DNA from: Holophagaceae bacterium
GTDB lineage: Bacteria > Acidobacteriota > Holophagae > Holophagales > Holophagaceae
NCBI GenBank assembly: GCA_017859995.1
Contig: JAFJUR010000004.1
Span: forward strand, 1 to 40,365
Direction: 5' to 3'
DNA length: 40,365 nucleotides
Shown here: piece after piece, positions 17,908 to 24,237 of the stretch
Layout: every line of letters begins with the position of its first letter
Numbering within the stretch: position 1 is the first letter of the stretch
Notes under the pieces: generated by a model
Told to the model about the DNA's origin: nothing
The model's database searches: none
Seen by the model: only the letters and a program-made list of their open reading frames with translations
Position numbers and translations under genes: made by a program

Positions 17908-19194
17908 ATGACGCCCGATCACCCCTTCCGCCGCCTGCTCCGCCGCCTCGTGCTGATGGAGGAGGGCGAGGCGCCGGCCCTGCTGTGGTCCACCCTGTAT
18001 TTCTTCCTCCTGTTCTTCGGCTTCTACCTGCTGCGGCCCGTGCGCGAGGCCATCGGCATCGCCCGGGGCGCCGACAAGCTGCCCTGGCTCATGACGGGCA
18101 CGCTCCTGGCCATGGTGCTGGCGAACCCGGCCTTCGCCGCCCTCGTGTCGCGCCTGCCCCGGCGGCGGTTCATCCCGCTGGCCTACCGGTTCTTCGCGCT
18201 CAACATGCTGGCCTTCTTCCTGGCCTTCCGCCTCCTGCCGAGCCACGGCGGCGCCGCGCTGGGCTATGCCTTCTACATCTGGCTCAGCGTCTTCAACCTC
18301 TTCGTCGTGTCGGTGTTCTGGGGGCTGATGTCGGACGTGTGGTCCGAAGGCCAGGGCAAGCGCCTCTTCGGTTTCATCGCCACCGGCGGCACCCTGGGCG
18401 CCATCGCGGGGGCCGCGGTGACGGGCCTGCTCACCAAGGGTTTCGCGCTCGGGGCCTGGCATGTGAAGGTGGATCCTCTCTCCCTGCTCCTGCTGTCGAT
18501 CCTCGCCATGGAGGGCGCGGTCTTCTGCGTGAAGCGCCTGGCGGGGATCTTCCAGTTGGGGGACACGGCCCACGGTGAGCGGGAGCCCGGTCCCGGCCCC
18601 CTGGAGGGCCTGCGCCTCATCGCCACCTCGCGGCTGCTGCAGCTCATCTGTGTCTACATGCTGCTCTACACCATCACCAGCACCCTGCTCTACCTGCAGC
18701 AGGGCGCCATCGTCGAGCGCACCTTCAGCGGCACCGCCGCCCGCACCGTGGCGTTCGCCCGCATGGACCTCTGGGTGAACGTGCTGACCCTGGTCACCCA
18801 GGTCTTCCTCACGGGCCGCATCATCACCGGCCTGGGCATCCCGGTGGTGCTGTCCATCATCCCCGTGCTCACCATCGCGGGCTTCGGCGCGCTCTGGGCC
18901 TGGCCCACCTTCGGGGTGCTGGCCCTCTTCCAGGTGCTGCGCCGCGGCTTGCACTACGCCGTGGACCGGCCCGCCCGCGAGATCCTCTACATTCCCCTGG
19001 GAGCGGAGGAGCGCTACAAATCGAAGCCCTTCATCGACACCTTCATCTACCGGGGCGGGGACCTGCTCGGGGTCTGGGCGCCCACGGCGCTCCTGGCGAT
19101 CGGCGTGTCGGTGGGCCTGGCCTCCGTGGGCTGCTCGGGCCTCTGGCTCGGCAGCAGCGTGGCACTGGGCCGCAAGGCCGGCAAAGCGGGTTGA
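17908..19194 (+). CDS. ATP/ADP translocase-like (NTP/NDP exchange-type) major facilitator transporter
   Basis: A 428 aa inner-membrane protein with roughly 12 hydrophobic segments. STLYFFLLFFGFYLLRPVREA near the N-terminus and YKSKPFIDTFIYRGGDLLG near the C-terminus match the conserved blocks of the Tlc/Npt nucleotide carrier family (KxKxxID...R.GD). The best-studied members exchange ATP for ADP in plastids and obligate intracellular bacteria; free-living relatives have unknown substrates and may be plain permeases. ATG 17908 follows a strong promoter; the TTG at 17884 extends it without support. It is divergent from the Tat epimerase. Confidence 0.75.
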   Translation: MTPDHPFRRLLRRLVLMEEGEAPALLWSTLYFFLLFFGFYLLRPVREAIGIARGADKLPWLMTGTLLAMVLANPAFAALVSRLPRRRFIPLAYRFFALNMLAFFLAFRLLPSHGGAALGYAFYIWLSVFNLFVVSVFWGLMSDVWSEGQGKRLFGFIATGGTLGAIAGAAVTGLLTKGFALGAWHVKVDPLSLLLLSILAMEGAVFCVKRLAGIFQLGDTAHGEREPGPGPLEGLRLIATSRLLQLICVYMLLYTITSTLLYLQQGAIVERTFSGTAARTVAFARMDLWVNVLTLVTQVFLTGRIITGLGIPVVLSIIPVLTIAGFGALWAWPTFGVLALFQVLRRGLHYAVDRPAREILYIPLGAEERYKSKPFIDTFIYRGGDLLGVWAPTALLAIGVSVGLASVGCSGLWLGSSVALGRKAGKAG

Positions 19195-19218
19195 CTTTTC
19201 GCGCCGTTCCCTGAAGAT
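19191..19218 (+). promoter_or_regulatory. Possible promoter of the thr operon leader
   Basis: TTGACT (19191-19196), 16 bp, GAAGAT (19213-19218). The -35 is good and the -10 is weak. The ATG of the putative leader peptide follows 7 nt after the -10, so the transcript could start at or next to that codon. The -35 overlaps the end of the carrier gene. Confidence 0.4.
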
Positions 19219-19225
19219 GGCGGAC

Positions 19226-19339
19226 ATGCATCAGCCTGTGGAAGCCATCGCCTGCGCGCCGGGGAACCCCCTCGACGGCGGGCTGCCGTACATGGCGACC
19301 ATGAACCACACCACGCCTGCCGCACCGCGGGGCGCCTGA
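19226..19339 (+). CDS. thrL: Putative threonine-operon leader peptide
   Basis: A 37-codon ORF, absent from the track, that ends 76 nt before thrA. Its last fifteen residues are [15 protein letters not shown]: three Thr codons (ACC at 19298, ACC-ACG at 19310-19315) lie just before a stop at 19337-19339. The segment CCGCGGGGC (19325-19333), inside the last codons, can pair with the 5' arm of the downstream terminator. Thr enrichment is far lower than in E. coli thrL, and no Shine-Dalgarno is seen, so the coding claim rests on position and on the fit with the RNA structure. Internal ATGs at 19292 and 19301 are other possible starts. Confidence 0.5.
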
Positions 19340-19391
19340 CCTGAATCTTCTTTTCAGACTCGGCCCCGCGGTCACCCCCGCGGGGCCTTTT
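19325..19391 (+). promoter_or_regulatory. Threonine-operon transcription attenuator (antiterminator/terminator pair)
   Basis: The terminator is a perfect 10-bp stem GGCCCCGCGG (19362-19371) / CCGCGGGGCC (19378-19387), loop TCACCC, then TTTT. Upstream, CCGCGGGGC (19325-19333) is complementary to nine bases of the 5' arm and can form a competing antiterminator. A ribosome stalled at the Thr codons near 19310 would leave 19325 onward free; one at the leader stop would cover it and let the terminator form. This is the geometry of classical amino-acid attenuation. thrA starts 25 nt after the T-run. Confidence 0.65.
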
Positions 19392-19415
19392 CCGTTCCAG
19401 CCCACCGGAGCCCCC

Positions 19416-21941
19416 ATGTCCCCCTCGGCGCCCGTTCCAGGACGATCCTCAGACCAGCCCCCGACTCAGCCCCCGGCCATCCGCGTCATGAAGTTCGGCG
19501 GCACCAGCCTGGCGGATGCCGACCGCTTCCGCGATGTGGCCGCCCTGGTGGCCGAGGCCCGGAAGACCCACCGCGTCTGCGTGGTGGCCTCGGCGATGGC
19601 GGGGATCACCAACCTGCTGCTGCACGGCGGCCGGGTGCCCGACCGCGCGGGGGCCGACCGGCTGCTCGATGCGTTCCGCGAGCGGCACGCTCAAGTGGTG
19701 GCGGACCTGGCGGCGGAGCTCGGCGACGGCGCCGCGGAGGTGCAGGAGACGCTGGCCTCGCTGGAGGCTCTGGGGCGCCGGCTGCTGCACGGCATGGCGC
19801 TGCTGGAGGAGGGGCCGCCCTCGGTGCTGGCCCAGGTGTCGAGCCTGGGCGAGCGGGCCGCCTGCGCCATCCTGGTGGGCCTGCTGAAGGCTCGGGGCCT
19901 GGAGCCCGCCTACCTCGACCCCGTGGAATGCCTCCGGGTGGAAGGCGATCCTCTTCAGGCCCGGCCCCGGATGGCCGACATCGAGGCGCGGTTCGCCGCG
20001 GTGAAGGCCGCGCCTGGGAACCTCTGGGTGCTGCCGGGGTTTTTCGGCGGCGACGGCGAGGGGCACATCCTTTCGCTGGGCCGAGGCGGCTCGGACCACA
20101 GCGCGGCACTTGCCGCCGCGGCTCTGGGGGCGGAGCTGCTCGAGATCTGGACGGACGTGGTGGGCCTCTACAGCGCCGACCCCACCTTGGTGCCCGAGGC
20201 TTTCCCCCTGCCGGAGGCGAGCTTCGAGGAGGCGATGGAGCTGTCCTTCTTCGGCGCGAAGGTGCTCCATCCGAAGACCATCCCGCCGGTGCGGGAACGG
20301 GGCATCCCCGTGCGGGTCTGCAGCACCTTCGAGCCGCAGCGGCCCGGCACGCTCATCCGCCGGGATGTGCCACCGCCGCCCAGTGGCGTCCGGGGCCTCT
20401 CCTTCCTCCGCGATCTCTCGGTGGTGAACCTCATGGGTCCGGGGATGCCCGGCGTGCCTGGCATTGCGGGCCGCGTGTTCGGCGCGCTCGCCCGCAAGGG
20501 CATCTCCGTGGTGCTCATCACCCAGAGCTCGTCGGAGCTCTCCATCTGCTTCGCCGTGCGGCGGGCGGATGGGATCGCGGCGGTGGCGGCCATCGAGGAG
20601 GCCTTCCCTGCGGAACTCGCCGCGGGCTTCCTCGATCCCGTGGTGCTGCGCGTCGGACTGTCGGTGCTCAGCATCGTGGGCGACGGCATGCGCACCCGGC
20701 CCGGCGTGGCCGGCACCTTCTTCGACGCCCTGGCCGAAGTGGGCTGCAACGTGGTGGCCATCGCCCAGGGGGCCAGCGAGCGCATCATCTCCGCGGTGGT
20801 GGAGGAGGCCGACGGCGCTCGCGCCATGGCCCACATCCACCGGCGCTTCTTCCGGGCCCAGGTGGTGGTGGACGTCCACCTGTTGGGCGCGGGGAACGTG
20901 GGCGGCAGCCTGCTGGGGCAGATCGCGCGCCAGCATGACCGGCTGCTGGCCCAGGGCCTGGACCTGCGGGTGACCACCCTCGCCACCAGCCGCCGGATGC
21001 GCCACGACGCCCGGGGCCTCGACCTGGGCCGCTGGCGTGAAGAACTGGCCCAGGGCGGGCCCATGGACCTGGACCTGCTCATGGAGGCGGTTCGCACGGG
21101 TCCACCTTCTCTGCCGGTGCTGGTGGACTGCACCACCAGCGGCGATCTCGCGGCGCGGTACCCCGATCTTTTCGACGCGGGCTTCCACGTGGTGGCGGCC
21201 AACAAGAAGGCCAACAGCAGCTCCCAGGCCTTCCACCGCGAGCTGCGGGAGCGCTCGGCCCGGCGGGGCCTGCGCTTTCTCTACGAGGCCAATGTGGGGG
21301 CCGGCCTGCCCATCATCGACACGGTGAAGAACCTGGTGCTCACGGGCGACCGGGTGCTGAAGGCGGAGGGCATCCTGTCGGGCTCCATGTCCTACATCCT
21401 CGGCCTGCTGGGCGACGGGGTCCCGCTGTCCGAAGCCGTGCGCCTCGCCAAGGAGAGCGGCTTCACCGAGCCCGACCCCCGGGACGACCTCAGCGGCATG
21501 GACGTGGCGCGCAAGCTGCTCATCCTGGCCCGGGAGCTGGGCCACGAGCTGGAGCTGGCGGACGTGGTGGTGGAAGGCCTGCTCCCGGCGGACTTCGACG
21601 CCAGCGGGGACATCCCCGGCTTCATGGCCCGCCTCCCGGTGTTGGACGCGGCGTTCAACCTCCGCCTGGCCGCGCTGAAGGCCGAAGGGAAGACCCTGCG
21701 CTATGTGGGATCGCTTTCGGACAGTGGTTGTCGCGTAGGCCTGCTGGCCGTGGACGCGGATCATCCCTTCACCGCCATCAAGGGCGGCGAGAACGCCCTG
21801 GCCCTGCTCACGGAGCGGTACCAGCCGCACCCCATGGTGATCCGGGGCTACGGGGCCGGGGCCGAGGTGACGGCGGCGGGGGTGTTGGCGGACATTCTGC
21901 GGCTGGTGCCCCCCGGCGCCCGCCCGGCGCGGAGGCTGTGA
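19416..21941 (+). CDS. thrA: Bifunctional aspartate kinase / homoserine dehydrogenase
   Basis: An 841 aa cytoplasmic fusion enzyme that phosphorylates aspartate and later reduces aspartate semialdehyde to homoserine. Kinase domain about 22-310 with [15 protein letters not shown] and [14 protein letters not shown]; two ACT regulatory modules about 320-460 ([40 protein letters not shown]), where threonine is expected to bind; dehydrogenase about 485-830 with [17 protein letters not shown] and [19 protein letters not shown]. The first 20 residues are Pro-rich and poorly conserved. GGAG precedes the ATG. Its stop overlaps the thrB start (TGATG). Controlled by the attenuator upstream. Confidence 0.95.
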
Positions 21942-22954
21942 TGGCGGAACCCACGATGTCCCAGGGAGGCCTCACGGCCTATGCGCCCGCCAGCATCGGG
22001 AACCTCGCCGCGGGCTTCGACCTGCTGGGCGCGGCGCTCGCGCCGCTGGACGGCAGCCTCCTGGGCGACCTCGTCCACGTGGCGCCGGCGGCCGTCTCGT
22101 CCTTCACGGTGACCGGGCCCTTCGCCCAGGCGCTGGCGGGGGACCCGCGGCCCAATCTGGCCCAGCGGGCCCATGACCTCTTCGTGGCGGCGGTCCGCGC
22201 CGAGGGCCGGGACGTCGGCCCCTTCGCCCTCACCCTCGAGAAGCGCCTGCCCGTGGCCAGCGGCCTGGGCTCCAGCGCCAGTTCCATCGTGGCCACCCTG
22301 GTGGCCCTGCAGGCGCTCTGCGGCGACCCCCTCGATGGCTCCGCCCTGCTGGGCCTGGCGGGGAAGGCCGAAGGGCACACCAGCGGCGCGGTGCACCTCG
22401 ACAACGTGGCCCCATCCCTGCTCGGCGGCCTGCAGCTCGTGGTCCCGGGCCGGGATGGGCAGCCTGCCTCGCGGCGTCTGCCCTGGCCCGCCGACCTCCT
22501 GCTGGTGGTGGTGCACCCGGAGTACCGCCTTTCCACCGCCGAGAGCCGCGGCGCGCTGCCGCCGAGACCCGAATGGGCCGAGGCGCTGGATTTCGCGGGC
22601 AACCTCGCCGCCCTGGTGCAGGCGCTGCACAGCGGCGACCGGACCCTGCTCGGGCGCTGCCTGCGGGATCCGCTGGTGGAGCATCACCGCGCGCCGCTGG
22701 TGCCGGCCTTCCGGGCCGTGCAGGCCGCCGCCTTGGAGCGCGGGGCCCTGGGCTGCAGCCTGTCGGGTTCAGGTCCCTCCGTGTTCGCCGTGGTGGAGGA
22801 CGAAACCCGGGCCACTTCCGTGGCTGGGGCCATGGCCGCCGCCTTCCGGCAGGCTGGCCTCGCGAGCCAGGCGTGGCTCTGCGCGCTGGACCCCGACGGC
22901 GCGCGGGTGGTCACCGCAGGCTTCACCCACCCCGGGCGGGAGGCGCATCCATGA
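21941..22954 (+). CDS. thrB: Homoserine kinase
   Basis: A 337 aa GHMP-family kinase that makes O-phosphohomoserine from homoserine and ATP. ASIGNLAAGFDLLGAAL at the start and LPVASGLGSSASSIVATLVAL (the ATP-binding glycine/serine loop) are diagnostic, with GCSLSGSGPSVFAV as the third GHMP motif. ATG 21941 shares a base with the thrA stop, and the gene's own stop overlaps thrC (ATGA), so the three genes are translationally coupled. The track ORF from 21728 continues back inside thrA. Confidence 0.95.
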   Translation: MAEPTMSQGGLTAYAPASIGNLAAGFDLLGAALAPLDGSLLGDLVHVAPAAVSSFTVTGPFAQALAGDPRPNLAQRAHDLFVAAVRAEGRDVGPFALTLEKRLPVASGLGSSASSIVATLVALQALCGDPLDGSALLGLAGKAEGHTSGAVHLDNVAPSLLGGLQLVVPGRDGQPASRRLPWPADLLLVVVHPEYRLSTAESRGALPPRPEWAEALDFAGNLAALVQALHSGDRTLLGRCLRDPLVEHHRAPLVPAFRAVQAAALERGALGCSLSGSGPSVFAVVEDETRATSVAGAMAAAFRQAGLASQAWLCALDPDGARVVTAGFTHPGREAHP

Positions 22955-24237
22955 GGCTGACCAGCACCCGCACCCCGGGCCTCGCCGCGACCTTCCTCGA
23001 GGCTGTGCAGGCGGGCCTCGCGCCCGACGGCGGCCTCTTCCTGCCGGTGGACCTCCCGCGCTTCGCCGATGGCCCCGAGCTGCTGGCGCTGGATTTCCAG
23101 ACGCGCTCGACGGAGATCCTCCACCGCCTCCTGGCGGGGGAATTCACCCGCCCGGACCTGGCGGCGCTGACCCGATCTGCCTTCACCTTCCCCGCGCCGC
23201 TGGTGCCAGTGCAGGTACCGGGGCAGGCGCTCGTCTCGGCGCTGGAGCTCTTCCACGGGCCCACCCTGGCCTTCAAGGATTTCGGAGCGCGGTTCCTGGC
23301 GCGCGTGCTGGCCCACGCCGCGGACGGCCGGCTCCGCACGGTGCTCACGGCGACCTCGGGCGACACCGGTGCCGCCGTGGCGAGCGCCTTCCACGGCCTG
23401 CCGGGGGTGCGCGTGGTGGTGCTGTACCCGGCCGGCCGGGTCTCGCCCCTGCAGGAGCGGCAGTTCGCCACCTGCGGCGGCAACGTGCTGGCGCTGGCCG
23501 TGGAGGGCGCCTTCGACGACTGCCAGCGGCTGGTGAAGGGAGCCTTCGAAGACCCCGACCTGACCGCGCGGCTGGACCTGACCTCGGCCAACAGCATCAA
23601 CATCGCGCGGCTGCTGGCCCAGACCCTCTACTACTTCGAGGCCGCGGCCCAGGCGGAGCGCGGCGCGCCGCTGGTGGTGTCCGTGCCCAGCGGCAACTTC
23701 GGCAACCTCTGCGCGGGCCTCATGGCGCAAGCCATGGGCGCGCCCATCCACGCCTTCGTGGCGGCGACCAACGCCAACCGCGTGGTGCCGGACTACCTCG
23801 ACACCGGCGAGTACCGGCCCAGGGCCTCCGTGGCCACGCTGTCGAATGCCATGGACGTGGGCGCGCCCAGCAACTGGGAGCGCATTTCCGCGCGGTTCCG
23901 GGGCGACCACGACGCCATGGCCGCCGCCCTCCGCTGGGGCAGCTGCACCGACGTCGAGACGGAACGCACCGTGATCGAGCTGGATCGCGCGGGCTACCTG
24001 GCGGATCCCCACGGTGCCGTGGCCTGCCACGTGCTTCGGGCCCAACTCCGCAAGGGCGAGCAGGGCGTTTTCCTCGCCACCGCCCACCCGGCGAAATTCC
24101 GCGAGGCCCTGGCCCCGGCGCTGGGCCGCGACATCCCGCTGCCCGCGGCGCTGAGCGCGCTGCTGCACCTGCCGCTGCTGAGCGAGCGCCTGGCCGCGGA
24201 GCCGTCGGCCCTGCGCCGACGGCTCCTGGCCGATTAG
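22951..24237 (+). CDS. thrC: Threonine synthase
   Basis: A 428 aa PLP enzyme that converts O-phosphohomoserine to threonine. The cofactor Lys is at about 109 in FHGPTLAFKDFGARF; TATSGDTGAAVASAF is the phosphate-binding block and VVSVPSGNFGNLCAGLMA a conserved glycine-rich loop. It is the long ThrC form (about 430 aa, with the N-terminal TRTPGLAATFLEAVQAGLAPDGGLF block) like the enterobacterial and yeast enzymes. Last gene of thrABC; its stop codon overlaps by two bases the stop of the convergent Ada-like gene, and no terminator is seen between them. Confidence 0.95.
   Translation: MRLTSTRTPGLAATFLEAVQAGLAPDGGLFLPVDLPRFADGPELLALDFQTRSTEILHRLLAGEFTRPDLAALTRSAFTFPAPLVPVQVPGQALVSALELFHGPTLAFKDFGARFLARVLAHAADGRLRTVLTATSGDTGAAVASAFHGLPGVRVVVLYPAGRVSPLQERQFATCGGNVLALAVEGAFDDCQRLVKGAFEDPDLTARLDLTSANSINIARLLAQTLYYFEAAAQAERGAPLVVSVPSGNFGNLCAGLMAQAMGAPIHAFVAATNANRVVPDYLDTGEYRPRASVATLSNAMDVGAPSNWERISARFRGDHDAMAAALRWGSCTDVETERTVIELDRAGYLADPHGAVACHVLRAQLRKGEQGVFLATAHPAKFREALAPALGRDIPLPAALSALLHLPLLSERLAAEPSALRRRLLAD

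Follow-up and report, generated by a model that had tools for sequence, protein, structure and literature searches.

The thrABC operon in the 40,365-nucleotide stretch of Holophagaceae DNA analyzed here (the window) is preceded by a short open reading frame (ORF) and a GC-rich terminator, and this arrangement raises the question of whether a translating ribosome decides if transcription proceeds into the operon. A first-pass annotation of this DNA had read the arrangement as a ribosome-dependent attenuator. Comparison with related genomes supports that reading, and we regard it as highly probable that the thrABC leader is a ribosome-dependent transcription attenuator with a leaderless leader peptide. 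The operon itself is composed of thrA (19416..21941), which codes for a bifunctional aspartokinase/homoserine dehydrogenase I (NF006959, 947 bits), thrB (21938..22954), coding for homoserine kinase (TIGR00191 / NF002288 above cut-off), and thrC (22951..24237), coding for threonine synthase (TIGR00260 above cut-off). Each of these genes scored above its NCBIfam cut-off, all are on the + strand, and 4-base overlaps occur at both the thrA/thrB and the thrB/thrC junctions. A GGAG Shine-Dalgarno sequence is located at 19407-19410 in front of thrA, and a Shine-Dalgarno sequence precedes thrA in all 35 congeneric loci that were checked. The nearest thrA relatives of the window genome are from Geothrix species and Holophagaceae MAGs, with Geothrix fermentans among those carrying thrA of the same group; these relatives place the source organism among the acidobacteria, in the Geothrix group, and bear out the "probable acidobacterium" of the first-pass annotation.

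The leader peptide ORF has 37 codons and extends from an ATG at 19226 to a TGA at 19339 (19226..19339), with an alternative start at 19217 that would give a 40-codon version; a Pfam search of the leader peptide returned no match. Its control codons (19298..19315) are Thr25 (ACC, 19298-19300), Thr29 (ACC, 19310-19312) and Thr30 (ACG, 19313-19315), located at the same place as the Thr-rich stretch of relatives, and tandem codons 29-30 are 12-15 nt ahead of a sequence that we call segment A (CCGCGGGGC, 19325..19333). This segment occupies codons 34-36, is complementary to the 5' arm of the terminator, segment B (GGCCCCGCGG, 19362..19371), and would form the 5' side of an antiterminator. The alternative partner of B is segment C (CCGCGGGGCC, 19378-19387), the terminator 3' arm, which together with the T run TTTT (19388-19391) spans 19378..19391. 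Pairing of B with C gives a perfect 10-bp GC stem of -23.7 kcal/mol with the loop TCACCC and four T residues, and no other terminator-like site occurs in 1.3 kb, for which shuffles predict 0.3. RNAfold additionally predicts an inner antiterminator helix (19341..19357) of CTGAA (19341-19345) with TTCAG (19353-19357), of which CTGA...TCAG is kept genus-wide. All of these leader features are on the + strand, and the earlier coordinates of the ORF, segment A, the terminator and the thrA start proved right to the base. The locus has the sequence features by which such an attenuator is recognized, namely a Thr-enriched leader ORF (weakly so in the window species), an intrinsic terminator and a competing antiterminator that overlaps the ORF.

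Orthologues of thrA were found in 36 of the 47 genomes of the genus as well as in 20 genomes from other genera of the family. All 36 congeneric loci, which form the Geothrix group, contain the promoter, an in-frame ORF and segments A, B and C. Their layout begins with TTGAC, continues with an ATG 35 or 36 nt from its first base, an open frame and a Thr/Ile-containing stretch, and finishes with an ORF end of, in most cases, RG(A/T/V) followed by TGA; the terminator is situated ~18-23 nt further on and is followed by thrA. These ORFs have 37-48 codons and differ in length by whole codons in 36/36 loci. The device is likewise present in 18 of 19 loci from other genera of the family (seven genera), the exception being L054, which has no device within the 330 nt read. 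Leader peptides from these genera are very different (for example MRAASCQPLPACGDAIAARGTSLAAPAIATTTTTTTAHMARPV in L052 and MVITLSTPAAIRSSRMAVGMTTMATPSITTTTTGTHSPAGPS in L055, or the endings ATTTTTTTAHMARPV and SITTTTTGTHSPAGPS, each directly followed by the stop), and apart from Thr/Ile runs and the final codons for segment A they have nothing in common between genera. As a check on its reading, the first-pass annotation had asked whether close relatives keep the Thr codons and the competing pairings, and the 36 congeneric and 18 other-genus loci do so. The 11 remaining genomes of the genus (G007, G011, G013, G019-G023, G028, G029 and G032) are without a fused thrA orthologue; some of them are incomplete, and G032 is a single contig.

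The threonine codons of these leaders are confined to one frame and one region. In a set of 58 distinct leader ORFs, Thr is encoded by 284 of 812 codons (35%) at positions 5-18 before the stop as compared with 61/812 (7.5%) and 5/812 (0.6%) when the same positions are read in the +1 and +2 frames, respectively, and 59/928 (6.4%) at positions 19-34 before the stop, counts that represent non-independent events given that the leader sequences are related. Against shuffles of each ORF, the Thr cluster has a median p of 0.005 over the 58 leaders. The leader of the window species has three Thr and no Ile codons in its control stretch, which on its own is within chance (p=0.24), and so it is the relatives that give the Thr density its significance. 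Most relatives have 4-8 Thr codons with Ile codons interspersed, and one g3 leader (L039) has a single Thr. The weak Thr density noted earlier thus describes the window species but not the leaders in general; to judge from these codon counts the low number is a peculiarity of this species, whose leader may respond only weakly to threonine. Ile is also raised in the Thr-rich stretch (72/812 versus 33/928 codons in the same 58 leaders). As a separate observation, Ile, Gly and Asn codons in the Thr-rich stretches of the genus (L001-L036) end in T far more commonly than they do in thrA; for Ile, the leader stretches have 34 ATT and 10 ATC codons while thrA bodies have 54 ATT and 887 ATC. Such T-ending codons perhaps keep the control stretch unstructured or slow the ribosome.

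The pairing of segment A with segment B was evaluated by duplex energy. In the window, the A:B duplex has an energy of -24.6 kcal/mol versus -17.7 kcal/mol for dinucleotide shuffles (p=0.02) and is the strongest such pairing in the genus. Over 48 distinct pairs, comparison with dinucleotide-shuffled A gives a mean z of -2.2 and a median p of 0.03. When A was instead paired with B segments from other groups, the duplexes were on average weaker than the native ones in 10 of 10 groups; the difference was clearest in family f24 (-18.2 native versus -11.0 kcal/mol swapped), where the pairing is kept with sequence unrelated to that of Geothrix (GCGGATGA with TCATCCGC). Leaders of genus g7 pair poorly (p 0.5-0.7). 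With regard to the compensatory changes that the first-pass annotation had suggested looking for, the GC core of the pairing is nearly invariant inside the genus and covariation is correspondingly thin, with one change from C-G to G-C between B position 9 and A that is found in three leaders, too few to carry weight. A 1:2 protector hairpin, as in the four-segment trp-type design, was also sought; A paired with upstream leader sequence no more strongly than in shuffled controls (median p 0.33), no conserved hairpin was found, and that design is not supported. As no protector segment was found, the device looks like a three-segment attenuator.

The promoter is of interest as it bears on how the leader would be translated. 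A -35 element, TTGACT, is located at 19191..19196 (+ strand), where it overlaps the stop codon (19192-19194) of an upstream TLC-like transporter gene. Based on the conserved promoter region, a putative weak -10-like hexamer, GAAGAT, can be placed at 19213..19218 (+ strand), with GATGAT in many relatives; it is a poor match to TATAAT and was not detected by a sigma-70 scan. Of 53 distinct family leaders, 50 have TTGAC at a distance of 35 or 36 nt upstream of the ATG. This result was obtained with a search that allowed roughly 33-43 nt and with TTGAC itself used in choosing the ATG, and the narrow 35-36 nt spacing is informative despite that choice. The three exceptions are L051, which is cut by a contig end, L055, which has a spacing of 42 nt, and L053, which lacks TTGAC there. 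A distance of 35-36 nt is that from the -35 element to +1 of a sigma-70 promoter. From this spacing transcription is expected to start at the leader ATG, which in the window would be at +1 or within ~1 nt of it, and the leader is probably a leaderless mRNA. The first-pass annotation correctly recorded that the leader has no Shine-Dalgarno sequence but regarded this as atypical; its absence is expected because the start is probably leaderless. Leaderless genes have been predicted to constitute on average 13% of genes in three Acidobacteria genomes (PMC3160421).

Together these features suggest the following mechanism. RNA polymerase would initiate at the leader AUG or immediately beside it, and a ribosome would load at the extreme 5' end of the transcript. 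When threonyl-tRNA is scarce, this ribosome would stall on Thr codons ~4-9 codons upstream of segment A, leaving A free to pair with B (along with the CTGAA/TTCAG helix), so that the terminator would not form and thrABC would be transcribed. When threonyl-tRNA is plentiful, the ribosome would reach the stop codon and cover A, whereupon B would pair with C and transcription would terminate ahead of thrA. In the relatives, scarcity of isoleucyl-tRNA would probably be sensed as well. Since there is no conserved protector of A, a leader that is not translated should read through.

Stem-loops are common between genes and the end of the transporter gene is just ~170 nt from the terminator, so one could suppose that the terminator merely ends the transporter transcript, that the ORF is spurious and that thrA has a promoter downstream of 19391. 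We consider this very improbable, given that in 10 of the 36 congeneric loci the TLC-like gene is missing upstream and the leader is nevertheless retained, so that the leader belongs to thrA. The restriction of Thr richness to one frame, the conserved A:B complementarity and the presence of a -35 element upstream of the ORF in almost every family leader also contradict such an explanation. There is similarly little chance that the ORF specifies a small, independently functioning protein and that its Thr-rich tail and the terminator are there by coincidence. For a leader peptide its N-terminal part is long (~20 codons precede the Thr stretch), and this part can be aligned within subgroups of the genus, but across genera only the Thr/Ile runs and the segment-A end are common, Pfam recognizes no domain in it, and a second leader of the same plan, rich in Trp, occurs before trpE.

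Terminator/antiterminator pairs are also a property of metabolite-binding riboswitches, T-boxes and protein-controlled attenuators. That one of these, rather than a ribosome, controls the operon is extremely improbable, as no Rfam family matched at cut-off and none credibly at a loose threshold, and the leader is almost wholly occupied by an ORF whose Thr codons are specific to one frame. A refinement that is compatible with ribosome-dependent attenuation is that the family device is genuine and has decayed or been retuned in the window species, giving a weak or shifted Thr response. The three Thr codons and missing Ile codons of this leader, set against the larger numbers in most relatives, would fit such a change. 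We nevertheless think it rather unlikely, as the tandem Thr codons are well placed to free A, and segments A, B, C and the promoter are all intact, with an A:B pairing unsurpassed in the genus.

Beyond the family, the distribution of the thr leader is patchy. Four genomes that were read from sister family f2 of the class have thrA without a leader. Elsewhere in the phylum, a Thr-rich leader and terminator occur in 5 of 28 thrA upstream regions, four of them in f24/g91 and one in f82. The f24 loci L113, L124, L126 and L127 have a Thr/Ile-rich leader and terminator before thrA whose sequence is unrelated to that of Geothrix, and in two genomes of genus g126 of the same family (L125 and L128) no leader was seen before thrA.

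Other biosynthetic operons were examined as well. A trpE leader of the form MTLSSLSLRQGLLHGAWWWRMGSDGSLCEA followed by a stop is present in 8 of 10 family genomes examined, with a terminator after it; the window genome's own version (L088, G000:C26) reads MQLSFPTLRQGLLHGAYWWWRTGSDGSLREA up to its stop. These trpE leaders (L084-L091) contain WWW or YWWW (WFW in L087). Like the thr leader, they have TTGAC 35-37 nt before the ATG, no Shine-Dalgarno sequence and an intrinsic terminator before trpE, and they probably represent a second leaderless attenuator. They differ in having a run of Trp codons that would sense tryptophan and in that the ORF, unlike that of the thr leader, runs past the segment matching the terminator 5' arm. 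In G004, ilvB (L070, G004:C31) is preceded by a V/I/L-rich ORF (MPPVSPHADAIPTTVVGRIVVITGLPGLVLRLTG) with a GC terminator behind it, and this region is a candidate attenuator for branched-chain amino acids; in most other genomes ilvB is within an operon with another coding gene directly upstream. No leader was seen before leuA, where a LysR-like gene is apparently divergent, and no His-rich ORF was found before hisG, which is operon-internal in most genomes.

The closest known counterpart is thrL (RF00506) of E. coli and other gammaproteobacteria, which has the same operon and logic with a Thr-rich peptide and a terminator that competes with an antiterminator. Ile codons among the Thr codons of the relatives are a further likeness, the specificity of E. 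coli thrL for Thr and Ile codons having been described by Lynn et al. 1987 (cited in PMC7041290). In E. coli, thrL is equipped with a ribosome-binding site and its peptide has 21 residues (PMC7041290), whereas the Geothrix-group leader has a putative leaderless start and a peptide of 37-48 residues; its segment A falls within the final codons, and we found no protector hairpin. The Rfam Thr_leader covariance model (RF00506) gave no match to it at the gathering score nor up to E=10. A leaderless precedent is the trpL attenuator of Sinorhizobium meliloti, whose RNA has the leader ORF's AUG at its very 5' end (PMC7298713); it differs in serving a Trp operon of an alphaproteobacterium with a 14-residue peptide. 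The literature searched, with subscription works (notably Lopatovskaya et al. 2010) outside its scope, contained no paper joining Acidobacteria with leader-peptide attenuation of thr genes. The mechanism is a known one for which the phylum Acidobacteriota is apparently new with regard to a thr attenuator, and we do not claim priority.

The probable leaderless start is the most interesting trait of this attenuator. We tentatively propose, at somewhat less than even confidence, that Acidobacteriota have evolved their own style of attenuator, in which transcription starts at the AUG of a leaderless peptide, giving ribosomes immediate access and making a protector unnecessary. This style would serve thr and trp operons, perhaps also ilv operons, and would have arisen with unrelated sequences in several families. 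The unrelated f24 sequences point to either independent gain or fast sequence turnover of the device within the phylum. The Geothrix thr leader is well conserved, its signal is obvious and the genus can be cultured; it would thus be a clean system for testing whether attenuation can be driven by leaderless initiation when no protector hairpin is present.
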